The notes under the pieces are model-generated. The model did no database searches, was not told the DNA's origin, and saw nothing but the letters and a program-made list of their open reading frames with translations. From positions 124,001 to 188,000 of the forward strand of contig NW_023501081.1 in the NCBI RefSeq assembly GCF_014066305.1: 64,000 bases of DNA, given 5' to 3'. A program made the position numbers and the translations under genes. Below are positions 8,879-38,701 of the stretch, one piece after another. The DNA comes from Letharia columbiana. Lineage: Eukaryota > Ascomycota > Lecanoromycetes > Lecanorales > Parmeliaceae. How positions within the stretch are numbered: the first letter of the stretch is position 1; every line of letters starts with the position of its first letter.

Positions 8879-9520
8879 CTACAAAAACCCACACGGAGCA
8901 ACGCAGTCTTCGCACCAGTGGCTCGATCCGGGCGCAACATGCCAGGTTCGCTCGACGTTCAGCCGGAACCCAAGAAGCTTCTTCTGCTCGCCCCAGCTCG
9001 ATACCAACACGACGGCCCAGACAGAAGGGCGGCTGAGCGTGTATTCATACTGTCGATAGGCGCTTTCGCCCAGTTCGTTGTCCGGAATCTGCATCTCAAA
9101 CGTGGTTTCGGCTTCACGGTAGGTGAAAGCGAGCTCCATGATAGTCCCCCTTCTGTTTTCTCGAATTCCGTACTAAGTTGCACTTTCTTTAGCTCTGGTC
9201 AATACTCCGCTGCTGGGTGATAAACACTTACGACTAGGCATTGCGAGAGTTCTGGTTGTCCTGAGAAGGTGCTTACGGTGACTCCGTAGCAGTGGTTGAA
9301 CCTGGCAGCGTATGGCATATCGTCAATGAGGCTGGCTCCTTCGATTATTGTGAGCCTCCCTGTGGAGCTAACGCCTGAAATTCTGCACGGTGAGCCCTCT
9401 AGGCATATGATGTCGCCTTTGAGAACTTCAGATAGGTCTTTGGAGCCGTTGGGGGCTGGGTTGGTGGCGCGGATGTACTCCTCGAGCTGGGCTCCGTCAG
9501 CGTTGACTTCCGTAAGATTT
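8879..9520 (-). CDS. eIF5A/HEX-1-fold protein, paralogue A (5' end unresolved)
   Basis: Exon 9520-9277 (upstream limit uncertain) encodes LEEYIR...LSEVLKGDIICLEGSPCRISGVSS, matching the first beta-barrel of eIF5A and HEX-1 (GD-I-L-GxPCxV). An intron at 9276-9173 (GTAAGC...TTAG, 104 nt) is followed by exon 9172-8879 with YGIRENRRGTIMELAF...FEMQIPDNELGE...VWAVVLVSSWGEQ, matching the second, OB-like domain (eIF5A: LRLPEGELGK...LVTVLSAM). The hypusine loop (TGKHGHAK in eIF5A) is shortened and has no equivalent lysine. The reading frame stays open upstream without an ATG, so a 5' exon or a lost start is likely. It is the most divergent of the four paralogues and lacks the second intron seen in B-D. 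Confidence 0.6.
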
Positions 9521-9609
9521 CTAACGAGAGTACTTTTGTGTACTTTGCCAACAGAGCAGGCGTCAAGCCTGGAAAGGCTGACGTTACGCTGACAGAGGGA
9601 ACTCTCATT

Positions 9610-11470
9610 TTGAAGCTTTCGGCCGACAGCGTGGATCAGAGGGGGAGCAAGGGGACAGAGAGTAGAATAAGCCTTCAGGTTATAACTCGTGTAAAGACGA
9701 AAATGGCAAGGGGACGCTTGCCGGAGGTGATTGGATGCGACGATATTGTACGAAAAAGTATCCTTGTCTTTCCAATTTTAGCTCACCTGCGAGCGTTGCG
9801 AGCATCGGAATCATTTTGCTAAAAGACCCTGCCATTCGACAGATACAGAAATTCACCACACACAGCCGAGGCGTTCAGTACCGGAGTTCCATCCATGTGA
9901 GTCTTTCACACAAGCCCGCGCCTGCGTGTGAAGCTACAGCTATCGGTTCCAGAACTACATTTTGACACCTTTGAGGACTTGGAAGGAACCTGTCGAGAAC
10001 CATTTAGAGACTTTGTAAAGATGGCACAGACCACCCTCCACATCGCCTCTCCACTCTCCATAATCGCAGTCCTCGCATCAGACCCTAACCAGCAAATCGA
10101 GAGTTCTGCCTAATGCCCAGTCAAAACGCGGTAAGCTTCTTCTCGACCCTTCAGCTTCATACCATTTACTTCTGTCACCTGACACCATCAGTCTCCTCAA
10201 ACCCGCGAAATCAAAAACAGTCAGCGACCCACCAGCCGGATTCACCTCAGCGTTGAAATCCCACGCTTGAAGGTCCCCCTCACCATTTGTCTGGAATCCT
10301 CGTGTCGAAAGAATGGTTCCCCGCGACCCCGAGGTTGGCGCTCCTGACCTTCCGGGTTTTCGCCGCTTCTGGATGTAAGACACTGCTTAGCGTGAGTTCA
10401 TGAATGGTTATGTTGAAGGGAGGGAGAGGAAGGACGAAAAACTTGCTACGAAAGATATATCACACTTCTGTACTCCCGTTGAAATCTTTGATCGATGTCT
10501 CATCTATGTGCGAAGAAGCTCTAACCACGGAGGACCTTGTCAGTAGTGCTTGTTTCCTTCACTCGAGTGAAGGGGCAAGAATCCCGAACCCTCTGGTATC
10601 GGGTGATTCATTCGGATATGTGACGTTACCGATAATCGTTGTGTTGAAATCATTCTGCGTCAGTGTAGATAGCCAAGACCTCTAGCGTTAAAGCTGAAAT
10701 GACTGGAGGCGTTGTGCTGGTTTATGAAGCTGTCCTCATTTGTTCTCAATCAATAACAACGCAAGAGGCAGCTCCGATTTTGACGTCTAGTTATTGGAGG
10801 TATAATCACCAATCGCTTTTCCTAGCTCGTTACCATTCCGGGATCTTCGTGCTTTGCCAATGTATCCCCCAAGAAAGGCACATTGGCCACTACCCATCCC
10901 CGAAGCGTGTTATGGGGTATACGTTCAACAAGGGAATAAGACTAGGATGTCAATCAGCTTTATTTGAAGGTGTTGGATTAGTATTAAGACGGATTCGATG
11001 GTCCGAGATCCGTTCCTTGTCTTGCTAAAAGGCCACACATGCTTGCAGAACGCCGGGTCGAAGGACACCGGGGGGTTGAATCAGCAAGTACTGCCCCATA
11101 CTTGCCAATGTCTGATACTGGTTCGATCCAGATGCTTTGCATATCGGCATTTGGACCATGATCTCAATCCTGATTTCTCGGCGGCGTTGCCGACTACGGA
11201 TCTGGAATGGGGGACATTGGGGACGAAGATCTAGTTAAGGGGAGTGAATGGGCGGAGGGCGTGGTTTCTAGTATCTCTCGAGGCTGTGAGTGAACGAGAT
11301 TGGAGGTTTCGAGTGTAGCTAGAGCAGAAAATAGACTCTGAATTGTTGAGCTGTCCTGATTCAACCCCACAGATTCAAAGACGTCCCACGAGTTAAATCC
11401 AAAACCAACAAAGCCACACGGCTGCTTCCGCCGGCCAGCGACGCTTGGTCAGGGAGAGGACCTGCCCCAG
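9610..11470. other. intergenic; protein-like fragments only
   Basis: Minus-strand frames at 10383-10078 and about 10680-10320 read protein-like stretches (NTTIIGNVTYPNESP, FNITIHELTLSSVLHPEAAK, GNHSFDTRIPDKW) interrupted by stops and frame changes. These may be remnants of an unidentified gene between paralogues A and B. Plus-strand frames are no better. I do not call a gene. Confidence 0.3.
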
Positions 11471-12243
11471 CTATGCCAACCGCTCCCAATCACCAATCCC
11501 GAACCCAATGACCTGAAACTTCCCCACAGCCTCCAGAATCAGCAGGGCTTCACCGCCCGTCAGCCATGTAGTTTGAAGTTGGACGAAGCAATAGATTCTC
11601 GACTTACTGATACCGATTCCAAGCCTGCCCTCATCGTCGTCGCACTGGGCGAAGAAAGCAGCCAGGTCCTCGCCGATTTTGCCTCCGGAGATATGGAACT
11701 CGGCCACGGTTCTCCGCGCGGGGCTGAGGTGCTGTTTCTGCAACGTCATAACCTCTCCGTCGAGACCGATCTGCGATTGATTGTCGAGAGGGTCAGTGAA
11801 GATGTCCTTCCCACCACGGCCCAGAGTCATCGGGGTTGAAAGAGGATGCCTACCACGGTATATCTCACGCGGGCGATGGGCACGAGCTTGAGCTTCTCGG
11901 TAGCTTTGACGACTAGCGGGTCCAATGCTCCTTTGTCGAACAACTCGATCATCTCGAGTGCGATTTTGTGTCGCGAGGCTAGGGGACCGGCTTGGGCCAA
12001 GCTGTCGGTTCTGCCTACGATCTCGCAGGGTTGGCCTCGGAAGAGGATGGCTTGGCCTACTGAGAGGTCCCTTGCGGCAGTCTCTGTTGGTGTGGTGGTG
12101 GGAGGTTGATTGTCCACGCGGGTCAAGTAGCCTCCTAGTTCCAATGGTTTGTCCATCTCTTCTTCCTCCGTATCTTCTTCCTCCGTAGCTTGTTCGCCCA
12201 TATCGTGTTTGTCCCTTTCGAGAGAGACCGAGTGCTGAGACAT
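11471..12243 (-). CDS. eIF5A/HEX-1-fold protein, paralogue B
   Basis: Start ATG at 12243. Exons 12243-11854, 11770-11608 and 11547-11471; introns of 83 nt (GTAGGC...CGCAG, phase 0) and 60 nt (GTAAGT...GAAG, phase 1). The product has 209 residues. Residues 1-30 are acidic (EEEDTEEEE), then LELGGYLTR, first domain DLSVGQAILFRGQPCEIVGR...IELFDKG, then RYTV joined by splicing to IGLDGEVMTLQ, EFHISGGKIGEDLAAFF and a tail LLILEAVGKFQVIGFGIGDWERLA. The domain order matches eIF5A and the Woronin-body protein HEX-1. The hypusine-site lysine is not conserved (LASRHK replaces TGKHGHAK), and there is no terminal SRL. Role unknown; most likely a structural or non-translation paralogue. Confidence 0.72.
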
Positions 12244-12606
12244 CTGGGTGTGGGTTTCGAAGTGTGTTGTACAACCGCGGTTCTGAGCAACACCTGTTGA
12301 TGTGAAGAGGTCGGAGAACGATGCAGGGTTTTGGGGGATGCGAAGGAGCAGAAAGAGAAGCCTAGGGTTATGGAAGTTCTTGCAGTCACACAGCGTTCCC
12401 TGGTCTACATATCGTGAAGCAGCAACGAAAAGCAGCGCCGGCGACAATAGCAAATGGAGGACGGGCACGCGGAACAGTGACGATGACAGCTGAATATTTA
12501 ACCAGGAATCACCCGATTGGCCGCATCTCTATCATGCCACCAAGTAAGCTGAGAGGCAAAAGCTTGACCTATTCCTCCCTAGCACAGCATCTTCCCATCC
12601 CCCAAC

Positions 12607-13361
12607 CTACCCAAGCGATTCCCAGTCCCCAACACCGAACGCAACGAGTTTAAATCTGCCCATGACCTCATATATCAACAGAGCTGTGACTCCCATTAGC
12701 TGAAAGGCATACGCTCTGCCACTTTGCAAAACCTACTAATGGGCATACGGCACAATTTTGCAGCGTTGAAGAAGTAAAGAAGCGAAGGGCCCAATCTGCC
12801 CCCAGGAAGCTTGAATACCCTCTCCGGATTGTCTCCGACCCAACCTTCCTGCTTCTGCAGGACCAGAGTGCCAGAGATGACCTCGGCGGGCGGAACATTT
12901 CGCTGCGGGGCCAGCTCGTTAGCATCAGACCAGCAGCCTTCCACGGCAGTCCACGCTGAGAGCGAAAATCGTACCACGGAGTATCTAGTTTGCCAGGTCG
13001 CGACTATCGTAATCTCTTCGGTGTCGTCTGTAATGCAATCGGTCACCTCATCGGCGAAGATATCATAGGCATGTATTGAAATCTCGCCGTCAGCATCTGG
13101 TAGACCCGGAGCGTTCAAGACTCTGTAGGGATTGCCATCATTGAGGATGACATCGCCCTCCTTGATGTCCTTTGCCCGTTTGGTCTTCGGCTCGAAGCAG
13201 AGTATGGCGGTCCGAGGAGGGCCATCTCCTTGGTAGAGAGTAAGCCAGGATCCGATGTCCAGTGGCTCTTCCTCCTCTTCGGCGAAGGACGGCTCAGCCT
13301 TGGTGAGAAAAATGGTCGAGGAGCAAGGATCCATACGTCCGATGACGAAGCGCTCGGACAT
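12607..13361 (-). CDS. eIF5A/HEX-1-fold protein, paralogue C
   Basis: Start ATG at 13361. Exons 13361-12975, 12902-12737 and 12683-12607; introns of 72 nt (GTACGA...CGCAG, phase 0) and 53 nt (GTAGGT...CACAG, phase 1). The unspliced frame runs to 12696, but the third exon, found by matching paralogue B, reads LLIYEVMGRFKLVAFGVGDWESLG. The product has 209 residues, like B, and exon 3 is 77 nt in both. First domain: IKEGDVILNDGNPYRVL...ISIHAYDIFAD, very close to eIF5A in pattern. Second: GTLVLQKQEG...VFKLPGGRLGPSLLYFF. No hypusine motif (APGLPDADGE in its place) and no SRL. It starts about 360 bp upstream of the B start on the same strand. Confidence 0.74.
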
Positions 13362-13826
13362 GGTGAAGGTGCGGTCTACAGTGCAGATAATGGGTACTCA
13401 AACGGGCTAAGGGGTAGGCGCGATGGTACATCAGCGAGGCAGATCTCTCAACAGCTCAGCAGTGATGATAGGAGGCATAGTGATCTATGGAGGGCACCAT
13501 GAAATATATAACTCCAAGCTAAACAAATGCCTAGACTCAAAACGGGTGTTTGCATAGGAAGAGAGCGAGAGAGAATGAGGTAGGATGGGTCAGGAAAAGC
13601 TGTCTCTCGGAGGAGCGAAGTTGCCTCGAAGCTTACCGACCTCCGCAGAACGCAGTACGAAAACGGTGCGGGCGGCGAAGGGATGCAACCGTCAATGGAA
13701 AACATGCGAAGATAGGGCTATCAGATCATGCAAGTGATGGCGCCTTCATATGCAACTTGTCAAATGATATTCAAACGGGAAAGTGCTGCGAGCGGTCATA
13801 ACATGGCGTCCATTTCAATGCGAATA

Positions 13827-14474
13827 TCACCAGTCGCCGACGGAGCAACCTACGATTTGATATTTACCCAGAGCCTCGAATATCTTTAGAACTAAAACTC
13901 ATTTTCAGCGTTGATCTTAACCGCATTGGCACGTAGTCGTGGGGTCAAACAGGAGTACTTCGCCGGGCTAAGTACGTACTGATTGGGTACCCCTGTCTTT
14001 CCGCAAGTCCAAAGAATGGGCCGAGTGTAACGCCCATCCCGACTCCAATAACCTTGAACCTCACCTCCATACCGTCACTGGTAGTGCCTGAGGCGGTTCT
14101 ATTTGTTTCGCGCTGCAGAACGCCGTGCTCAATATTAGCATGCAATCGATACCTAGTAGAACAGTTGACGAATTGAAGCGTACCACAAGATACTCCCAGT
14201 GCCTGGTCCCTACAAGGTCCACTATTTGTGCGGGCTCGAGGATCTTAAACTGTACAGTGGCGTTGCGCGAGATATCACGAGCGGTGACAGTGACCATGGG
14301 ACTAGAGATATTGGTGCATCAGAATTCTAAAACCTTGTGAGGCCGCAATTCGTATACAATGACTTCGTCTTTTTCGATGCACAGTGCTAGTTTTCCACTT
14401 CGTGGATTTCTTGCCGTGCGTGGCGGACAGATTTCGTTGTCGAGTTCGATGAACCCTCCAAGTTCGAGGACCAT
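13827..14474 (-). pseudogene. eIF5A/HEX-1-fold protein, paralogue D, with in-frame TGA
   Basis: Exons 14474-14184, 14127-13980 and 13891-13827 are placed by comparison with B and C. Introns are 56 nt (GTACGC...TTGAG, phase 0) and 88 nt (GTACGT...TTTTAG, phase 1), at the same positions as in B and C. The text reads MVLELGGFIELDNE, KDEVIVYELRPHKVLEF, then an in-frame TGA at 14321-14319, then MVTVTARDISRN, WEYLV, HGVLQRETNR, FKVIGVGMGVTLGPFFGLA and IFEALGKYQIVGCSVGDW before the final stop. No intron of plausible size removes the TGA while keeping frame. It is therefore a recent pseudogene, a recoded stop or a sequence error. The rest of the frame is well preserved, which argues for recent damage. 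Confidence 0.6.
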
Positions 14475-15073
14475 AACGGAGTCCGAGATGGTGGTTAGAT
14501 GGACAAGCAGGTAAAATATGGAGAAATGTACCAGGGAGTGTCAAGAGGCACCCAAACGAAGTAAAAAAAGATAGTCCAGGAATCAGTAACCGTCCCAGCT
14601 CTGGCCAATGAAGCAACAAAAAGGACTTGAGCGTGTGATGGTCTATGAAAAGGAACTTCTGGAGAATCATCCTTGGGATCTTGCATCGCTTGATTCCGCC
14701 CTTGATTGCTCCATTTCGGGCAAGTACCGGACAACAGCATCGACGAAAATCGCAACTGGTAATAGTGGTAGAACAAGGTAAACACGGAGAACGCGAATGA
14801 GACGAAAAGCAATTACCAGGAGCAATCTCAACCATGGCGTCTCAGTTGTGCACCTGAAATGATGCGGAGCTATGCCAACTCTTTGGTAATGCAATATCTA
14901 GCACTTCATAAGCCTACGGCCTTGGTAAAAGGTCATGCCATGTATCACAATCAGGCGCCTGCTTTGCATGAAGACGCGCGTCAAATGGGTATCTCAAGGC
15001 TTCAACAGGGAACCTGCTCAACTACGAATGTCGCCGGAGAAATATTTGTGTCAGCATGAGTGCGCTACGAATC

Positions 15074-16426
15074 TCACTGGAGGAAGGTCAGCAAGTGCGC
15101 AAGGCGACTGAGCCAAAGTACGCACCAGGAAGTAGTCAGCCACCGGCTTTTTTGCCGGCATTCCCCTTGGATCCTGCGGAGCAGCTTCGAAGACTCTATA
15201 CCTTCTTCCAGGACCTGACCTAGGTGCTAGATTGGGCATGAACGCCTGAGCACTCCTTCCGGCGTCACCATTACTCCTCGCAATGACTCCGCCGTTGCTG
15301 GTATCCTCGCCCAGCTCCAGGATTGCCGCAACATTGCCACAACGATAGCAGTAATTTGGTGCTGACCAGACTGTAACTATACTTGAATCAAACATCTCTT
15401 TGAATCCTTCCATTACGAGTTGATGTGCTCTTGCTATCAAGGAGAGGTCGTTTAGATGGTTGAAGCGCTTGACGATTTCTGGTCCGAAGAGAAAGCCTGC
15501 CCCTCGTGGCGAGAGGCCCCAACTATCGATCTCATCCGGATCACTCCATAAAAGATCGCACATGGCACCTTCATGGGGGACTTCTTGCTTTCGATCCAAA
15601 AGCCTTATCTTGTCGACGCTATCGATCAATGGGCTGAGCCCCCCGTGCACGCAAAGCACTGCTCCTCCACTATGATGCGAGCCTCCACTGTCACTTGTAG
15701 CTCCAGTACCTGAAGGGCCAGTCTTCGAAGGCGTTCCAGGAGGAGAGGAGTTGAGACCGTCACTTTCGAACAAGCGTCGTCTGCTCCTGGGGAATCTTGC
15801 CGTCACCTCGTTCCTGGAGTTCATGATCTCAATCTCCACATCATCGTCCACCGGCTCAATTGCTTGTGACTTGTCCGTAAATGATGGCTCCAGTGTTGAA
15901 CTCGTACCTAGTACCAGCGCCCCTAAAGCCAGATAATCGAACACCTCACAGCAATATCTCCATACATTCGCACTCCCATACTTCCGTAGACATTCATCAT
16001 AGAATCCATATACAGTCGTGATCTGCCGTGATTCGTGATTCCCTCTTATCAGCGTTATCCGATCCGGATATCTGACCTTGAGACATAGTAATAGCAGAAA
16101 ACTCTCGAGCGAGTAGAAGCCCCGGTCCACGAAGTCCCCCATGAAAAGGTAGTTGGTGTCTGGCACATCTCCTCCTACCCTGAACAGTTCCATCAGGTCA
16201 TGAAACTGTCCGTGTATATCTCCGCATATCGTGACAGGTGCGTCGACCTGGACAACGTTGGCTTCTTCGATCAGCAGCTCGCGTGCTTTGTGGCAAATCT
16301 CGCGGACTTGGGGTTCGGGGATGATTTTGCAGGCGCGGAGTTCCGAAATGGCCCTGTATGCATCTATCAATAAGAGCGCCTGTGGACTAGTAGGATGGGT
16401 GATCAGTACTTGTCTAGGTCACTCAT
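15074..16426 (-). CDS. PPG1: PP2A-like Ser/Thr phosphatase catalytic subunit, Ppg1 type
   Basis: Exons 16426-16410, 16353-15126 and 15076-15074; introns of 56 nt (GTACTG...ATACAG) and 49 nt (GTGCGT...CTCCAG). Splicing of exon 1 gives [14 protein letters not shown]. The metallophosphatase signatures are complete: GDIHGQF, GDFVDRG, RGNHESR, then HGGLSP, LLWSDP and [11 protein letters not shown]. After VLGT there is an insert of about 75 residues rich in Ser/Gly/Pro, and another insert follows LELGEDT; both go with Ppg1-like enzymes rather than PP2A proper. The last intron places the stop right after DYFL, the C-terminal tail that is carboxymethylated in PP2A. Known family role: cytoplasmic phosphatase, linked in yeast to glycogen and Far/STRIPAK-type complexes. 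Confidence 0.88.
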
Positions 16427-17011
16427 CGTCGCCCTTCTTGCCCGTGGCTAGTCGGGACTGCGAGGTCTCTCTCTCGTCAGCTGCTTAGATGGATGGAGGC
16501 GCTTTGCTGACAAATACTAAGACTGCTCCTCGGTTTGTATGACTAGTACACGGGATCCAGTCCAGACTCGCAAGGCGTTCGAGGTAGGGTAAGAGTGAGG
16601 AAATATCGACGGGGAAGAGTGGAGGGGGCTGGCACGCGGTGAGAGAGCTTGTTGATTCCGGCCGACCTTATCCAACTGTCAATTGGACATGATCGAAACA
16701 AAATAGATGTATAGGCAATGTTAGACCAGTCAAGAGGTCATTGGTGCAGGAAGCACAATAGATGGAGCAGAGGTCCGCTAGCGCAATATATTGCCACATC
16801 CCTGTCGGTCTTGGCTCCAACGGAAGTCAAGGAAGCTTTCATTCCCTCAATCTCCATCAACACCTCCAAACCTGTGACAACTGGATCACAGACAGAGCCT
16901 ATGCAAATTTATCACTTCCTCCTTTGTAAAGATCTAGTGGCCGGCTTCTCACAATGGCAACAGCATGAGCTCTCAGTCTCCGCTTTGAAACCCTTTTCCA
17001 CTCCCTTAGCC

Positions 17012-17431
17012 ATGACACCCCACCTCCACCCTCGATCCCGCCTCACAACTTCCCTCTTCGGCACTACCCTCCTCATTTCCTTCCTAGTTGTCGGCATGCC
17101 ACACATTATACCATGCCCGGCGCCCCGCGTCAAGTTTGCAGATTCGGAATTCGAGGTTATGGAAGATGGGAGGCGGAGAAGGCGGCGGCGGACTACAGAT
17201 GCTCCAATCGACGGGAGCGCTGGGGCAGACAGAGAAAAGCAGATGCCTCTATACATTTCAGAAGAGGAGAAGGCCATAATGAGGAAGAAGGCACATGAAT
17301 GTCCTGTTCCAAAGCCCCCTGGGATCATTGGAAGGGTTTTTGGCTATAACGGTGAAGATAGCGGAGAAGAACAGTCTAGGCCGCGAGTAGTGACGCAAAA
17401 GACATCTGAAGTGCGAGAGGACGAACCGTGA
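17012..17431 (+). CDS. small conserved-type membrane protein, Arg-rich centre
   Basis: The frame is open from 16718; the ATG at 17012 is preferred because it puts basic residues (MTPHLHPRSR) directly before a hydrophobic segment (LFGTTLLISFLVVGMPHIIPCPAP), a typical single-pass or mitochondrial-type N-terminus. It gives 139 residues. A run of Arg (DGRRRRRRRTT) and a polar C-terminus with YISEEEKAIMRKKAHECPVPKPPG follow. I believe small proteins of this shape are widespread in filamentous ascomycetes, but I cannot give a function. It lies about 590 bp from the divergently transcribed phosphatase gene. Confidence 0.55.
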   Translation: MTPHLHPRSRLTTSLFGTTLLISFLVVGMPHIIPCPAPRVKFADSEFEVMEDGRRRRRRRTTDAPIDGSAGADREKQMPLYISEEEKAIMRKKAHECPVPKPPGIIGRVFGYNGEDSGEEQSRPRVVTQKTSEVREDEP

Positions 17432-17620: not shown

Positions 17621-18961
17621 TCACCAGGTCCACGTCCATAAGCCTTTGCCTGAGAGTCCTTGCAGCAGACTCACCGGCACCGGATGATAGTGCCAGTAAC
17701 CCAGCTCCCGGAATGGGACAGCCATAAGCGGTAGAGTCAGACACAGCCATGCAGCCGTCCAGGCTATCACTAGCGCCCTCGTCATTGACCAGTCCAATGC
17801 TTGCGGGATGAAGCGAGCAACGAGCTTCGACACCGCGAGCTCCAAGCCAAAGGCTGGTATCTGAGCCCAAAAGAAGCCCGCAATATGCAATCTCATCCAG
17901 CGCGGAGACACCAGACTCGTTTCCGGCTCTGGTGGAATCAGCCCCATATGCATGACACCGGAAAAGAAAAACGCCGATATCATTAACAGCGCAAACCCCG
18001 TTATCGACTTCGTTGGGATACCCAATGCCTGAGCCAACGATCGTCCTGGAGGCGCAGTAAACTGCCGATTTACACCATGCCACCAGTCACCCCATAAACC
18101 GCGAAGTCCCCTTTCCGGTATAGCTGAAAATCGGCCGAAGGGCAGTGGCCATGTGTGCGGACTCCACTCGTATGGCAGAATACCAACAGCATTCAGTCCT
18201 ACCATTGGGATTAGGGGGACATAGAACATGCCGGTCACCATGGCATAGATTTGTCCTGCAAGAACACAGGATCTGAGAAACCGTGGAGGCAGCAGTCTTA
18301 ACGTGACGAGCCAGGTTGCCATTTGCGCGTTTGGGGGAGGAAACGGCTGGTCGACTTCCATGCCAGACGTGGTGAAGTAAGGATCCGTCCAAGCGTAGAA
18401 AGCTGCGGCGTCTAGGATGAGATAGCTCTGGACAACGGTTTTTACTGCGTGCCTCAGAAAGGCTGATCTGCTGAGTCTTGCTGGTGGCTGGGTTTTATCA
18501 TGAGAAGGATCACCAATCTTCCATCCCGTTAGTCGCAGAGATACTAGCAGTGTGAAGACCCAAGGAATCCGCTGTGCCATTTTTTCGGGATACGCTTCTT
18601 CGACAACGATATCTTCTACCGTTTCGCTCGGGCGTTTCTCATCGGAAACCGAAGGTGTGGAAATCCATATGCGCCGGTGTGTCTTGCGCGGATCTCGACA
18701 TACCAGGAGGACGAAGCTCCAGAGGGCCAGGTCCACGGAGATGACATCGATGCCGGCGGCGTACCAGGAATGGATTTGGCAGGCAAATATGGCAGGCAGA
18801 AACAGGAAAGCCAGTTGACTCCGGGACAACACAGATGGCGGTGTGAGTAAAGCGAGTGGGAGAAGCAGGAAGGGAACGAAGTAGCTGTAGCTGTTGGGCC
18901 CTGGGACGATATGATGGGTTAGGTGCTCATAGAACTCGGCGACCTCCACGAAGGATTTCAT
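17621..18961 (-). CDS. wax-synthase-like membrane acyltransferase (MBOAT-2 type)
   Basis: The frame is open from 19036; I take the ATG at 18961 (446 residues), as the first 25 residues look like leader sequence. There are many hydrophobic segments: an N-terminal pair (YFVPFLLLPLALL, LAFLFLPAIFACQ), a central loop with GWKIG, then the wax-synthase core LWGDWWHGVNRQFTAPPGRSLA and FFFSGVMHMGL with the likely catalytic His. The arrangement matches fungal wax-synthase-domain proteins, which include acetyltransferases of terpenoid pathways. Substrate unknown. No biosynthetic cluster genes are seen nearby, so a lipid or sterol role is equally possible. Intronless. Confidence 0.75.
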   Translation of the reverse strand: MKSFVEVAEFYEHLTHHIVPGPNSYSYFVPFLLLPLALLTPPSVLSRSQLAFLFLPAIFACQIHSWYAAGIDVISVDLALWSFVLLVCRDPRKTHRRIWISTPSVSDEKRPSETVEDIVVEEAYPEKMAQRIPWVFTLLVSLRLTGWKIGDPSHDKTQPPARLSRSAFLRHAVKTVVQSYLILDAAAFYAWTDPYFTTSGMEVDQPFPPPNAQMATWLVTLRLLPPRFLRSCVLAGQIYAMVTGMFYVPLIPMVGLNAVGILPYEWSPHTWPLPFGRFSAIPERGLRGLWGDWWHGVNRQFTAPPGRSLAQALGIPTKSITGFALLMISAFFFSGVMHMGLIPPEPETSLVSPRWMRLHIAGFFWAQIPAFGLELAVSKLVARFIPQALDWSMTRALVIAWTAAWLCLTLPLMAVPFRELGYWHYHPVPVSLLQGLSGKGLWTWTW

Positions 18962-19221
18962 GCTGGAACTCGAAGCAGGTGCCGCTGTTGGACAGGAAAA
19001 TGCAAACCGAATCCCACGAACCCAACGATCCTCCAAGTATCTAGCTGATGGTCGAAGGAATAGATAAATGAATAAACAAATGAATAGACGGTGTCAGATG
19101 AGATCTCAAGAAACTATCCTGAGGCGTTCATTCATGCATAGTGATGTCATGATGTCAAAAGAACGTACAGTAGGATCGGTCAACCACGGTTCTTGCGCAT
19201 GGCAGCATGCAGGCGTGACCT

Positions 19222-29920: not shown

Positions 29921-32741
29921 CGGACTTGACTCAGGCTACATCTTCCAACCCCTCCTCCACTCCCGCCAAGGGCGACCCTGCCGCGTCAAGTCATGATAGG
30001 GACTACGGCCTCTACGTCGGCCTCCAAGCCCACGTCGAGCACCAGAAGTAGAAGATACGCTGACACGACTTGATCGTAGTGTCGTCTTGCACATCTGCGG
30101 GGATATGGTGGAGGTAGCTTTCCATAGCAGGCGGATGTGATGCATCTCAGTAGATAAATGCAATCATCATATCAGCCACAAAACTAATGCTTTTTAAGAA
30201 GAATTAAAGCGTGCTTTAAAGCTTTAAATCTTAGCGGATCTTGATTAGAATAGCCCACTCGTCTTATTCTCGCTATTCTTTACTAAAGAGATATTTAAAA
30301 CTATTACGCGAAATATTAATGTATACGCTATATAGTAGCTTATTATATTACGAGAACGAGACTCTATTAAATCGAAGCTTCCAGAAAATAACATAAATTA
30401 GCGAGCTTGATGGGCTATTAATATAGTCGAAATTAAGATATTTATAGAGTATCTCGTTTATATAGATATTTATTAGAAAGGCGAGATCGTAGACTATTAA
30501 AATAAGGATATATTTTATAATACGTATTCTCTTATTATAGTAAGGTAGTTAATTATACTAATCTATCTCCTAGACTTCGTATATACCTTATAGTTATTTA
30601 TGGCTTAAAATAGATTTACTTAATTATAGCGATTTTTTTATATTAGTTCTTTAAGCGATAATACGCCTACGGAGCTTATAGAAGAAGAGGTGAAAGTAAT
30701 AATCGAGTAAGAATTAAAGTCTTAGAAGCTTTAGTAATAGCATAAAATAGAGCCTCTTTTAACTTCTTTTAGAAATTACTATTAGAAGTATTAAAGGCTT
30801 AATAGTAATATCGCTATCGATAAGATAATAATATAATTTTTCGAACGATTAAAGCATATCGTTAATATAAGAAATAAGCCTATCAAACGAGGGTATAAAT
30901 TCTAGGCTCTCTATAAGGCTGAGTATATATATAACTTTATATACTACTTACGTATTTTGAAGACTAGCGAGCTAAAACCACGTGAAATGCTAATAGCTAT
31001 CGAATCTATAGTATATTAGCTTACGCTTATACTATCTCCTCTATTCTTTAATAAGATATATACTCTTTATCTCGATAACCTCTTCATATCGATTTCATTA
31101 TTTTACGAGTTATGTATTGTGGATATTGAAGTATATAAAACGACTCGTATAAATAATAGCGTCGATTTTCCAGTTATTCTATAGGTTATAAGGGAAAAAT
31201 GAGATTATAAGCTACTCTAAAGAACGCTCGTAGCTATATCGATAGACGACGTATTATATCTAAGCTAAATTAATAATAATACGATACTCTCGCTATCTAC
31301 GATATATATAGTAGATAAAGCGAGTAATATTATTAAGAAATGGCGAAAAAGACTAGATCTTATCTTTATTAATATAAAGGCTATAAGAGAGCTATTTAAT
31401 AAATAGCCTCGGGCGATACTTGAGATTTTTATATTATATTAATGATTATAACTATAATATAGACTTCGTAAATATCGTCGATTAGTATCGCTAGGCGTAT
31501 AAGACTTAGAGAAAGATTATGAGAAATTGGTAATTAATCTTCTATTAAGTACTAAATTATAGCATTATTAATAACTTTAAGATTAAGAGCTATATAGGCT
31601 TTTATTAAAAGAAGAGATAGTATAGAGACTTTAGAATTCGACTGTATAAAGAGTTATTCGCCTTTAAAGAGGATATAGAGATTAATAAGTATACTAATTA
31701 TCTAGATACTAATCGATTTAATAAAATTATTAAATATACACTTATTAAGTTATAGTAGAATCTTATCGTTAAGATAAAGTAGTAAAAGAATTATATTTAA
31801 TATAAGCATAAAAGTAATATGGCCATCGCTCGATCGCGTATATCGAGTCTAAAGAAGCGTATCTTTGATAATTCTTTAAGTTATAATATAAGATCTATTA
31901 ATAGAAAGCGTATATATCGTATCTTATATAATTATATAAACTGTTAAGTCGCTCTATATATAGCGGAAGATAAGAATTATTAAAAGCGATAGTATAGATA
32001 AGTATAGCTATAAAGTAAGCTTATAGTCGTAGTAAGCATATATAATCATATAGAACCACTTATAAAATTAGTATACGGTCCGATTATTCTTCGAATATAG
32101 CTGTTTTCAAGCTTATTTAATAACTATATAATCGTACTTCTTTCATTATTCTTCTTTTATATTTCAACTACCTACCGCCTATTAAGCCATCTTCTTATCT
32201 TTATCTTCTTTCTATCAATTATCGACTATTTCTATCTACTTTCTCTTTCTCTAAAGTATTACTTAGAGTTATTATAGATAGTATAAACTAATAAGAGATA
32301 GTTCTAAAGCTATATGAACCTCCGCCTCATCGTATTTTATTATCTTATTATACTCTACTAAGTTAGTCTCGCGTGCTAAGATCTATCGATAAGTTATATA
32401 ATAAGATATTTCTAATACGATTTAGCCCTTTACGTATATAATGTATAGAGAGTATAGTTATAGAGTACTATTTATCTTATCTTCGTTCTTTATATTTAAT
32501 CTATTAAAGAGTTTTTTTAATAACTTAACATCTAGAGGTTCTACTTAATTTTTAATAACTTTTTAATAAGAAATATACTTATCGTAGATTATATTTAAGC
32601 TAGCATTATTAATCTTTAAAAGTTATTTTATTTCTTAGATTATTATAGCTATATAACTTAAGTCGTAATAATTTTTAATAGAATTAATAGCAATATAGTG
32701 ATATTAGAATCCTACTAGCGTAATTCACCCGAACCCAAAAA
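29921..32741. other. AT-rich, RIP-mutated repeat DNA
   Basis: From about 30180 the base composition changes abruptly to TA-rich DNA that keeps CpG (tcg, gcg, cga are frequent) but has very few CA/TG steps. This is the footprint of repeat-induced point mutation, which converts CpA to TpA on both strands. No intact frame remains. A stretch near 31820-31910 still reads MAIARSRISSLKKRIFDNS, possibly the end of a transposase-like protein, but I cannot assign a family. 29921-30180 is unremarkable. Confidence 0.7.
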
Positions 32742-32812
32742 AAAAAAAAAAAAAAGTCTATTTCCCCCTTTTAACAAAAAAAAAAAAATTAAAAAAAAAA
32801 ACATAAAAAACC

Positions 32813-32846
<34 letters not shown>

Positions 32847-32895
32847 AAAAAAAAGCAAAAAAAAAAATAAACCCCCAAACAAAAAAAAAAAAAAA

Positions 32896-32964
<69 letters not shown>

Positions 32965-32972
32965 ATTTTTTC
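32742..32972. repeat. long adenine homopolymer tract with C/T islands
   Basis: Mostly uninterrupted A runs, the longest over 60 nt, with short CCCCC or TTTT islands. It abuts the left end of the inverted-repeat element at 32987. It looks like consensus noise or a failed gap closure rather than real biology. Confidence 0.6.
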
Positions 32973-34774
32973 TTTTATTTTAATTATAACTCAAAGACGC
33001 ACTAGTCTCAAAGACGCGTTTTTTCGCGATTTGATACTCTATATTATAATTTACTATTATTCTATTATATTATATCTATATCTTATTCTAAATAAAAGAA
33101 ACTCGTTTAAAAGATTATTAATAAATATAAGAATAATTATTTTCGCAGCGCTATAGCGGTTATAGAGTATTATAATCTTAAATCGCGATAAATATAAAGA
33201 TAACTTCGAGAATAAGCTTTTAGAAGTACTTAAATACTTATCTATATACGTCTTATTACGACTTAAAAATAATCGCTATATAATTATATTAATTATTTAA
33301 ATAATATTAAATATTTACTTTAACTAGATTACATTTAAAATATTTTTAAATATATTCTAAAAATTATTTTAAATTCGTATTATTCTCTTAAATTACTCGA
33401 TAAAGATTAAACTATATAATTTATAAAACGATATTTTAAATATTATAAATAAAAGTAAAAATCTCTTAATGTCGAGTATAAGAATATATATAATATTAAA
33501 AGTATACGCGTAATATATAAGAAATTTCGATAGGGCTATAAAGAGAAAGATATATAATATTAAAATATTTAAAATATAGATAAGATTAACTTTCAAATTA
33601 ACTATAAAATCGTTTATTATATTATTACTTTAAATAAAAATAAATCTCTATAATTTATAGATCTAGATAATTATAATTATATTATATTTATAAAATATAT
33701 TAGCGTCGAAGACTAAAGTATATCTCTATTCGTAATTTTAAAAGATATTTATATTCTATATAAATAGAATAAAAACGACTTACCTTCGAATATTATATTA
33801 ATTATTTTATTTATTAAATATTTAAATAATCGACTAATATATAACTAGCTATTATATTTTAATATATTTTTTTATTATTATTAAGTAAAAAATAAAGAAT
33901 CTTAATTCTAAACGACTTCGAATCTTACTATATCTACGAATTTTATATATTTATCTAATAATTAAAAATCGACTTATTTATATTTCTCTTATATTCTATA
34001 TATATTATATAACTATTAAATATAGAATACTTTTAATTATTTAAATACTATTATATAAAGACTATAGATTTAATTATATATTTTAGAAATAACGATTTTA
34101 ATAAACTCGACTTTCTCGTAGTATTTAATTAAATAAGAATCTAAATCTTTACGTCTAGTACTATATATTCGATCTTTTAAAAAATTAATTTTATACTCTA
34201 TAACTCTAAAGTAATACTCGAAAAATTAGAAATCTAATATCTGCGCTATAACTTTAGATAAGTTTATATCTTTTATACTTATTAGAACTCTTTATAAAGC
34301 TAAAAACGTTATTAAATATAATTAATAATTTAAAGAATTATTTACTACTTAGACTTTTATTATTTTAAAAATATATAATAGCTATTAATCTAATTTATAA
34401 AAGAATTTATTAGTATACGAGTAAAGGCCTATGAATTAAATTCATAATCATTTTTTTGATCAGGGCTATCGAGTAAATAGGTGAGCGATCTTTGGTGAGC
34501 GATCTTTGGTGAGCGGGCTGTCCGGCTGTCGAGCGAACTTTGGTGAGCGATATTTGAATTCCTTGCGCTTTAATAATTATAAGACCAAATTTCAAAATTC
34601 TTAAAAATTCGGAAAGCGCAAACAGCGCTTTAAAATTTTAAAAAAAAAAAAAAAATTTTAATAGAAAAAAAAAAGTTATTCTGAAATCAAACAATGTGTA
34701 CCTGTTTTTTGATCAGGGCTGTCCGGCTGTCCTATTTTTTTGATGGTTGCGGACGCTAATTTATTTACCCGCGA

Positions 34775-34937
34775 TGACTCAGCCGGTCTAACCAAAGAGC
34801 GTAGTGACCCTGAATTGATGATTGATTAGTATATATAATAGAATAAGATAGGGCTGAGCTTGAAAACCTTGAATTTGTATGTGCAGCCAATCATCAATTC
34901 GGGTCCTGTACGCTTTTTAGTTAGACCGGCTGAGTCA
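34775..34937. mobile_element. fold-back MITE-like element
   Basis: Arms 34775-34792 (TGACTCAGCCGGTCTAAC) and 34920-34937 are exact reverse complements, and imperfect pairing continues inward for about 50 bp through GAATTGATGATTG. The total is 163 bp without coding capacity. A partial copy in the opposite orientation is at about 44227-44330, next to the right arm of the large inverted repeat. Confidence 0.7.
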
Positions 34938-35209
34938 GCCCGGTAGCCCTCCCGTATCTCCCTCATCAAAAATCTATGTGTAGAAGTCTTACACTCTGAA
35001 ATAACTACCTCCCTAAGGATGCTATTACTTCATAATTTCGTAAATTATAGAGCTCAGTGTGCGCTTTCTAACGCTGTAAAAATAATGAAGTTTGGCCTAC
35101 TATTGGTGGATTAAATGGACATTCAAATATAGTAGTTATAATAGTTACACCAAACGCGTCCGGGATCGGATAATAATCCTTCCACCTGTTTATTATTCTT
35201 CCACCATTC

Positions 35210-35275
35210 TACCAATTCTACCAATTCTACCAATTCTACCAATTCTACCAATTCCACCAATATAAACATAATCGT
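35210..35275. repeat. (ATTCTACCA)n minisatellite
   Basis: About six tandem copies of a 9-bp unit, with shorter runs at 35881-35912 and, inverted, near 43409-43432 and 43908-43932. The units are in frame with NST repeats in the broken reading frame. Confidence 0.75.
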
Positions 35276-35950
35276 CTTCGGTACCCCTCGCCCAATTAGA
35301 GCCCCTTACTGACGCCCCCAAGCCACCCCTCGACGAATCCGCTACTACTGACAATCGAGGCCGCAAGCGAGCCCAACAGCTACCTACTACTGCTCATAAA
35401 CGCGTTGGAAGGCCCTCAAAAAGAGCCCGAACGGATACGTCCTCCCCTACATACTCCTCCCAAGCCAGCGGTAGGTGGGTTAAACTGACATTCAAATATT
35501 GTAGTCACACCAAACGCGTCCGGTTCAGGCACGTACACCCCTTTTACCCGCCTCTTAGAGGCCCTACTGACGCCCCCAGGCCACCCCTCGGCGAATCCGC
35601 TACTGCTGGCAATCGAGGCCGCAAGCGAGCCCAACACGTCCTCCCCTACATACTCCTCTCAAGCCAGCGATGATGCCTTCCAACCCAGCGATGCTACCTC
35701 CCAAGACGCGTCTTCCCCCCTACCCGTTCTTCATCACCCTATTTTGAAGCCTCTCAACGCGTGTTAGATCCTGAACATCGTTAAGAAGAAGCCTCTAAAA
35801 ATATGATAATCACACCGGTGAGACGCGTCCGGGATGGATAATAATCCTTCCACCTATTTGTGTAACCATTCTTCTTCCACCATTCTACCAATTCTACCAA
35901 TTCCACCAATATGAACACATTTACCCTCGATACCCTCGCACTCAGTTGAA

Positions 35951-36530
35951 TAAGAGGAGGATCTACAACAGGCGAATGCGGAGAACACTGCGGAGAAACC
36001 AAGCGGCAACAAGGCCCCCAGCACCAAGAACACGGCTCAGCTCTCCAAGATCCCACGTCATATGCTCTCCACGGTTCCACATCAAATCATCACTCAGCAA
36101 GCGGAGAACACCACTGCAACTTAGCCTGTCATCCCCACTGCATTAAGGAGTAAGAGAAGGAACTACAACAGGCAAATGCGGAGAACACTGCGGAGAAACC
36201 AAGCGGCAACAAGGCCCCCAGCACCAAGAACACGGCTCAGCTCTCCAAGATCCCACGTCATATGCTCTCCACGGTTCCACATCAAATCATCACTCAGCAA
36301 GCGGAGAACACCACGCAACTTAGCCTGTCATCCCCACTACATTAAGGAGTAAGAGGAGGAACTACAACAGGCAAATGCGGAGAACACTGCGGAGAACACT
36401 ATGGAGAACACTGCGGAGAAACCAAGCGGCAACAAGGCCACCATCGTCAAGAACACGGCTCAGCTCTCCAAGATCCCACGTCATATGCTCTCCACGGTTC
36501 CACATCAGATCATCACTCCGGAACGATGCA
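35951..36530. repeat. ~200-bp tandem repeat with nested 12-mers
   Basis: Three units begin near 35951, 36151 and 36350 (AAGAGGAGGAACTACAACAGGC). Each contains GCGGAGAACACT repeats and the TCATATGCTCTCCACGGTTC block. The third unit has extra 12-mers. The inverted copy at 42.36-43.37 kb has a different number and order of units, showing copy-number change after duplication. Confidence 0.75.
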
Positions 36531-36734
36531 TATTTAGACGAATTGAAACCGTCCGTCAATTTCTTTCCGAATTGTATTTTAATTACTTATGCTATTTCAT
36601 TTATTCGTCAAAAATTTCACTAAGCGGCAAGAGATATTGTTGGGTTAAATTAATTCGATTTGACTTAGAAAAATCTAACTCTATGAATTTAATTTCAAAG
36701 GCCTTTTTGTTATTAATAATATTTAAGAAAAAAT

Positions 36735-36872
36735 AAAAAAAAAAAAAATAAAAATATTAAAAAAAGAATATAATAAGGAATATATAAGATACTTTCTAAA
36801 ATAATTATTTAGAAGAAGAATAAATATTAGTAGATTAAATATATAAATCTCTAATTATAATAAAAAAAAAAG

Positions 36873-36906
<34 letters not shown>

Positions 36907-36950
36907 TATTAAAAAAAAAAAAATAAAAAAAAAAAAAACGATAAGACTAT
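36735..36950. repeat. A-rich homopolymer stretch
   Basis: Long A runs with TTA islands inside the RIP-type DNA of the transposon. Sequence reliability here is doubtful. Confidence 0.55.
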
Positions 36951-37324
36951 TAAAACTTATATTTAAAAATTAAATTATAATCTATAAAAGCTAATATATA
37001 TATATTAAGATATATTTATTAAGATTTAAGTTATAGAATAAAATTTATATAGAATTAGAAAAGAAATAATAGATTTTCGCGTCTTTAAGACTAATGCGTC
37101 TTTGAGTTAAGGACTACTATAAGCGAAGCGAATAGTCGGACTACGATTAAGCGATTTGATCTCAATCTTCCCAAAAAAAAATTAACTTGTTGGCTGCAGA
37201 TCTCAGAGAAGCGTTGCATATATCAATCACTGAATCCCCCAAAGATATTCTACATCTCTTTCATTACTTCTGAGCCAGAATCCACTCCTCACCCTTATAT
37301 ACGGAAAATCATTTCAAAGACCCC

Positions 37325-38701
37325 ATGGCATCAGCAACGCCCTTCACGGTAGCTGTGCCGAACGATCGACTGGAGAGATTACGCGCGAAGTTGGAATTGA
37401 CAGAATTCCCGGATGAACTGGATGATGCCGGATGGGACTATGGAGCTCCGCTGGCTGATGTGAAGCGGCTGACTGCATACTGGAAGGATGGATTCGACTG
37501 GAAGCATCAGGAGGCGGAAATCAACAAACTGCCCCAGTTCCAGACCCAGATCAAAGTCGATGGATACGAGGCTCTGAGAATTCATTTCGTTCATCAGAAA
37601 AGCGAGAATTCCAAGGCTATACCACTGCTTTTCGTACACGGATGTATGTCTTTCAACGCGACTAGACTAAGACGCAGGATTATTGACACGGTGCAGGGCC
37701 TGGTAGTTTCTTGGAAGTCGTGAAGCTACTGCCACTACTCGCAAAGCAGGACGGAGGCAAAGGTCCAGCTTTTCATGTCGTTGCGCCATCTTTGCCCAAC
37801 TTTGGCTTCTCCGATGGCGTCAAAAAGCGCGGCTTCGCTTTGAAGCAGTATGCTGAGACTTGCCACAAGCTGATGCTTCAACTTGGCTATGATCAATACG
37901 GTAATCTCGTTTGCAGTATGAGCGAAATTAGACTAACAATCCCTAGTAACTCAAGGAGGTGATTGGGGCAGTCACATTACTCGTGTAATTGGCTTCCGGT
38001 ATCCGCAACACTGCAAAGGTCAGCATTCAAACACTCGATATCCGCGCCTTTGAGAGCACGCTGACAAAAATACAGCCAGCCATATCAATTATGTCAGACC
38101 CACACATGCTCCGACATTCACTAGCTCTCCAGCGCTGGCATTGCAACATGCTGTGACACCCTACAGCGACTATGAAAAGGCAGGCTGGGCACGCACACAG
38201 TGGTTCCAGAAAGAAGGATACGGTTACAATGAAATACAACGTACTAAACCTCAAACCCTTTGCTATGGTTTGGCCGACAGCCCAGTTGCATTACTTGCTT
38301 GGATCTACGAGAAACTCCATGACTGGACCGACCATTACCCTTGGACTGACGATGAGATCCTGACTTGGATCTCGATATACTGGTTCTCGACCGCTGGGCC
38401 AGCTGCTAGCACGAGGATCTACTATGAAGTGGGACATGCGACTGGATCTGATCGCTCTGCGATCGGGGAGTACATTCCGCACGTCAAACTCGGGCTGGCT
38501 TATTATCCGAAGGATCTCGATATCCCTCCGAAAAGCTGGGGTAGGATTCTTGGACCTGTTGTATTTGAGCGCCAACATCCAGACGGTGGACATTTTGCTG
38601 CTCATGAGCGGCCTGAGGCTATGGTGCATGATCTGAATGAGATGTTTGGCAAGGGTGGAGGAGCTTATGGGGTGATCAAGGGCAAAGAGGGCTACAATTG
38701 A
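37325..38701 (+). CDS. epoxide hydrolase (EHN domain, alpha/beta-hydrolase)
   Basis: Exons 37325-37643, 37697-37900, 37947-38018 and 38076-38701; introns of 53, 46 and 57 nt, phases consistent. The product has 406 residues. The N-terminal EHN domain ([23 protein letters not shown]...WDYG, then W...[11 protein letters not shown]) is followed by the oxyanion motif HGWPGS, rebuilt by splicing. The nucleophile Asp is in QGGDWGS, a lid Tyr candidate in IYYEVG, and the His in [11 protein letters not shown]. These match microsomal-type epoxide hydrolases, which open epoxides to diols. Fully open and unmutated although the RIP-mutated transposon ends only 215 bp upstream. No signal peptide. Confidence 0.88.

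Follow-up and report, generated by a model that had tools for sequence, protein, structure and literature searches.

Has the ancient fold of the translation factor eIF5A been put to a further use in ascomycetes, beyond the Woronin body major protein HEX-1? The question is raised by four neighboring genes, here called A to D, in a 64,000-nucleotide stretch of the Letharia columbiana genome (contig NW_023501081.1, positions 124,001 to 188,000; hereafter the window). A preliminary description of the window had placed four genes of one fold on the minus strand at 8879-14474, and four genes do lie there; read from 14474 down to 8879, they are D, C, B, and A. Our analyses put B, C, and the broken gene D solidly within the eIF5A/HEX-1 fold family, whereas the relationship of A is probable and is supported in its first domain alone. 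The array is a real, conserved, clustered eIF5A-derived family, set apart from eIF5A and HEX-1 by the features that define those two proteins. Its genes look like another use of the fold, because their apparent descent from eIF5A is combined with loss of the modification site and absence of the HEX-1 targeting tag. For comparison, plant-pathogenic ascomycetes are described, in the part of PMC4838825 consulted, as having one hypusinated eIF5A, with Hex1 as a second eIF5A-like protein.

Gene models and the shared fold

Searches for relatives returned 41 proteins, which by best blastp match were 22 A-type, 16 C-type, 3 B-type, and no D-type; these are proteins, not genomes, the exons of one gene being counted separately and the window fragments P0002 and P0005 included. 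One of them, P0004, is identical to the spliced model of C at 209 of 209 residues and lies on a 1817-base contig of source "lgn," which we take to be the Logan assemblies of read archives. P0004 likely derives from a spliced transcript, because in the whole genome it is met exon by exon only. Another, P0001 (1164-base contig), is a spliced relative of B, 57% identical over 94% of B. The splice sites of B, C, D, and the genome's own eIF5A were picked by eye; those of C are backed by the identity with P0004, those of B by how P0001 reads, and those of D by homology, exon 1 of D having been placed by hand from the sequence. As modeled, A, B, and C have three exons each and spliced lengths of 202, 209, and 209 residues.

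12975..13361, minus strand: gene C exon 1, acidic N-terminus, conserved LDIGSWLTLYQGDGPPRTAI peptide, and SH3/KOW-like domain 1 (spliced model, P0004, fold prediction)
12737..12902, minus strand: gene C exon 2, domain 2 with LPGGRLG (spliced model, P0004, introns at eIF5A columns and phases)
12607..12683, minus strand: gene C exon 3, final strands and GVGDWESLG tail (spliced model, P0004)
12903-12974 (phase 0) and 12684-12736 (phase 1), minus strand: gene C introns (eIF5A columns and phases)
11854..12243, minus strand: gene B exon 1, acidic N-terminus, LELGGYL, and domain 1 with GQPCEIV (spliced model, relative P0001)
11608..11770, minus strand: gene B exon 2, domain 2 (spliced model, introns at eIF5A columns and phases)
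11471..11547, minus strand: gene B exon 3, GIGDWERLA tail (spliced model, P0001 in agreement)
11771-11853 (phase 0) and 11548-11607 (phase 1), minus strand: gene B introns (eIF5A columns and phases)
14184..14474, minus strand: gene D exon 1 with in-frame TGA at 14319-14321, probable pseudogene (homology to C across the stop)
13980..14112, minus strand: gene D exon 2, domain 2 (homology to C, introns at eIF5A columns and phases)
13827..13891, minus strand: gene D last exon, SVGDW tail (model exon ends, homology to C)
9583..9608, minus strand: gene A possible exon 1, the least certain, with weak donor GTCAGC (similar starts in P0023, P0025, and P0026)
9232..9520, minus strand: gene A exon 2, IF5A-like domain 1 with KGDIICLEGSPCRI (IF5A-like_N matches, hhalign to own HEX-1)
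8879..9172, minus strand: gene A exon 3, HWCEDC tail, no convincing fold or family match (conserved in relatives)

When the six local sequences were compared all against all by blastp, B matched C at an expect value (E) of 8.7e-20 with 28% identity and C matched D at 3.6e-14, and a trimmed B/C profile built without A or D rows recovered D at 8.7e-17. In structure prediction, C folds as an SH3/KOW-like domain followed by an OB-like domain, the pair whose absence was named beforehand as refuting the fold assignment, which was thus not refuted in C. B and D are clearly homologous to C at the sequence level and would share its fold, as their two eIF5A introns also suggest. The barrel and LPxGxLG motifs described earlier are present, in C for example as GDVILNDGNPYRV and LPGGRLG; the expected GFG-(I/V)-GDW-type tail is found in B (GFGIGDW), C (AFGVGDW), and D (GCSVGDW) and is absent from A. 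The picture of four genes of one fold therefore stands for B and C, stands for D with the reservation of its in-frame stop, and is supported for A in the first domain. Like eIF5A/aIF5A (PF21485 and PF01287), C has a two-domain fold and a KOW-type GxPC-V core. It also shares the superfamily fold of bacterial EF-P, and its sole weak Pfam match is to EFP_N (0.0081), but C has two domains in a eukaryotic, intron-bearing gene, whereas EF-P has three domains.

Several results weigh against this assignment. The Pfam cut-off for PF21485/PF01287 was reached by none of the spliced A, B, C, and D proteins or the unspliced open reading frames (ORFs), the only matches of B and D being unrelated and at chance level, and the array was missed by genome-wide Pfam searches. 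The hhalign probabilities were low, at 24% for B/C against eIF5A, 11% for B/C against HEX-1, and 31% against eIF5A for the A1 profile, which includes the A and D rows. With the A3 profile, which is without those rows but has tails read through introns, 14 PDB matches comprised 4 to eIF5A/EF-P (best 0.12) and 7 to ribosomal eL21 (best 0.32). Two of the five models of C scored just 60.9 and 55.5, and the N-terminal peptide is not fixed in the model, residues 47-55 having a predicted local distance difference test score (pLDDT) below 50. A PDB search with the A2 profile was discarded as circular, eIF5A and HEX-1 themselves being part of A2.

The reading of D comprises 162 residues with an X at the stop, and its exon 1 is uninterrupted apart from the TGA, across which the ORFs 14319-14540 and 14061-14318 run in one frame. 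D is probably a pseudogene, because its homology to C extends on both sides of the stop; a sequence error is less likely.

As for A, IF5A-like_N was matched by 10 of 10 A-type domain-1 members, the window's own included (best E 5.2e-4); this last, at 14.4 bits, falls below the cut-off of 27.1. PDB matches of the A domain-1 profile up to E 10 were five to HEX-1, two to eIF5A, and two unrelated (best E 0.17), and hhalign aligned the domain with the genome's own HEX-1 over 22 residues at E 5.2e-5 and 67% probability, which 0 of 19 shuffles reached; against D the result was noise. For the second domain, sequence and structure searches gave no convincing match (model pLDDT 59.6); HWCxxC ends this domain in 13 of 13 sequences, the window's included. 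At 8879-8900, A stops at GFL, where 10 of 12 relatives extend further, mostly with another Cys, the frame of its last codons differing from theirs. Domain 1 of A is nearest to HEX-1, which, like the array proteins, is a filamentous-ascomycete paralog with the eIF5A fold and no hypusine. A role at the septal pore or Woronin body, in which the proteins would join HEX-1 in its assemblies, cap them, or act as its competitors, is unlikely. Unlike HEX-1, none of A, B, C, and D carries a C-terminal peroxisomal targeting signal type 1 (PTS1).

Introns and the probable parent gene

The eIF5A gene of this genome, on contig C6, was assigned three introns: the first lies close to the N-terminus, the second follows EYQL (phase 0), and the third interrupts the codon that comes next after EKDT (phase 1). 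In a protein alignment built blind to introns, two introns in each of B, C, and D coincide exactly with the second and third of these, at columns 171/172 (phase 0) and 231/232 (phase 1), all three genes matching at both positions, whereas HEX-1 (contig C5) reads through both sites with no intron. The shared introns favor eIF5A over HEX-1 as the parent of B, C, and D, and we infer that the three genes arose by DNA duplication of an intron-bearing eIF5A copy. The first intron edge is also kept in the C-type and A-type groups, as indicated by conserved read-through letters: VC, VR, VS, or VY stands straight after R(Y/C)xV in 14 of 14 unspliced C-type relatives checked, and VS at that edge in 10 of 11 A-type relatives checked. 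The protein that did not fit the pattern, P0024, is the one found protein with a named source, Letharia lupina. This species is a lichen-forming fungus, and on the strength of this one name the carrier of the array is probably a lichen-former too.

The genome also contains a third PF01287 match (contig C4, 627639-627818; 1.4e-9), which ends in VSRA and has a GHAQV-like fragment alone upstream, with no clean gene; this could be a copy of eIF5A that has diverged or is in decay.

Features lost, features gained, and possible function

In the 6 local proteins and the 41 that the searches returned, the TGKHGHAK loop occurs in canonical eIF5A only and an SRL-type PTS1 in the genome's own HEX-1 only, which bears out the earlier claim that the array genes have neither a hypusine site nor an SRL signal. 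In alignment A2, the column of the hypusine lysine holds P in B, C, and A and N in D, and the C-termini are GFL (A), RLA (B), SLG (C), and GDW (D). Other differences from eIF5A/aIF5A are scores below the Pfam cut-offs, the extra acidic N-terminus of B and C with its conserved peptide, and the mostly acidic domain 1 of C-type proteins, which carries a net negative charge in 12 of the 14 (-9 in C itself, compared with +6 in the own eIF5A). In C, residues 34-53 (LDIGSWLTLYQGDGPPRTAI) have a mean identity of 91% to C over 13 relatives, whereas in three domain 1 stretches the figure is 52-69%, so that the strongest constraint measured in C lies outside the fold.

Together, these data suggest a course of events in which an intron-bearing eIF5A copy would have been duplicated at the DNA level, intact eIF5A and HEX-1 persisting in the same genome. 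The hypusine lysine would then have disappeared from the duplicate, which would have acquired an acidic N-terminal region bearing an L(E/D)(I/L)G(S/G)(W/Y/F)(L/I) peptide and multiplied in tandem to give B, C, and D, with A as a related, further diverged neighbor. The proteins may have left translation elongation to become protein-binding or scaffold modules outside the peroxisome, in which the peptide would dock a partner onto the eIF5A-like two-domain body; a docking site is placed at residues 34-53 because no other stretch measured is as well conserved. Our best guess, held with nearly as much belief as doubt, is that the proteins act away from the ribosome, in binding or as scaffolds, and work through this peptide. 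Certain observations count on the other side. Because many of the proteins found are fragments of one exon, the TGKHGHAK and PTS1 tests are informative only for proteins that include the relevant part; 2 of the 14 C-type domains are not acidic; and domain 1 of B is basic (+3, pI 9.4; +1 in its relative P0001), so that B may still contact the ribosome or RNA. RNA binding through domain 1 is less likely for the C-type proteins, though not for B, because their domain 1 is net negative, and judged by charge a basic B and an acidic C domain 1 would suit pairing of the two proteins.

The basic domain 1 of B, as in eIF5A, and the retention of the overall fold would also fit unmodified eIF5A mimics that still engage components of translation, whether the E site of the ribosome, deoxyhypusine synthase, or an eIF5A exporter, and act as modulators of eIF5A. 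We regard such mimicry as unlikely, given that all four proteins have other residues in place of the modification loop and that the C-type domain is so often acidic.

Relatives, distribution, and surroundings

With P0004 and P0005 set aside, the best local matches to the window's proteins are 53-85% identical for C-type and 60-98% identical for A-type relatives. This conservation, the conserved peptide, and the spliced product of C make it improbable that the array consists of decaying, barely functional remnants of an eIF5A duplication long past, although the stop in D and the last residues of A, which are unlike those of its relatives, would fit such decay. Tandem, diverged paralogs such as B and C could also be expected of self/non-self recognition or other fast-evolving conflict genes; the high conservation of the N-terminal peptide and the lack of any effector-type domain in nine neighboring ORFs scanned (of the 22 window ORFs of at least 230 amino acids) leave this reading very improbable.

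P0018 (C-type) and P0029/P0030 (A-type) share the same longest contig figure, 18350, which suggests that A and C occur together in another genome. Searches of the Letharia columbiana genome with C, A, the B relative, and the C peptide, in which the best candidates were scored, gave no further copies; they matched just pieces of A, B, and C at the array locus and missed D itself. No extra family member lay in the A-B gap among the best 12 tblastn rows per query, and a scan of prokaryotic genome contigs with P0004 gave 50 pattern matches and no relatives. In the open literature on eIF5A/HEX-1 paralogs and lichen-fungus genomes, no description of the family was found in the portions consulted of the matches listed (including PMC3713238, PMC4838825, PMC6371581, and PMC10023807). 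We tentatively propose, as somewhat less than an even prospect, a second ascomycete recruitment of eIF5A besides HEX-1: a clustered, non-hypusinated family maintained in one clade of lichen-forming fungi, with a new function via the N-terminal docking peptide and the Cys-rich tail of A. A further eIF5A-derived family whose introns give evidence of the parent gene would amount to a second natural experiment in the conversion of a universal translation factor.

Upstream of the array lie a calcineurin-like phosphatase (15051-16418, minus strand), a COA2-like ORF below cut-off (16715-17431, plus strand), and an MBOAT-type acyltransferase ORF (17621-19093, minus strand). Elsewhere in the window, an AT-rich block at 30001-38000 (GC content 0.19-0.40, in surroundings mostly near 0.5) resembles a mutated repeat island.
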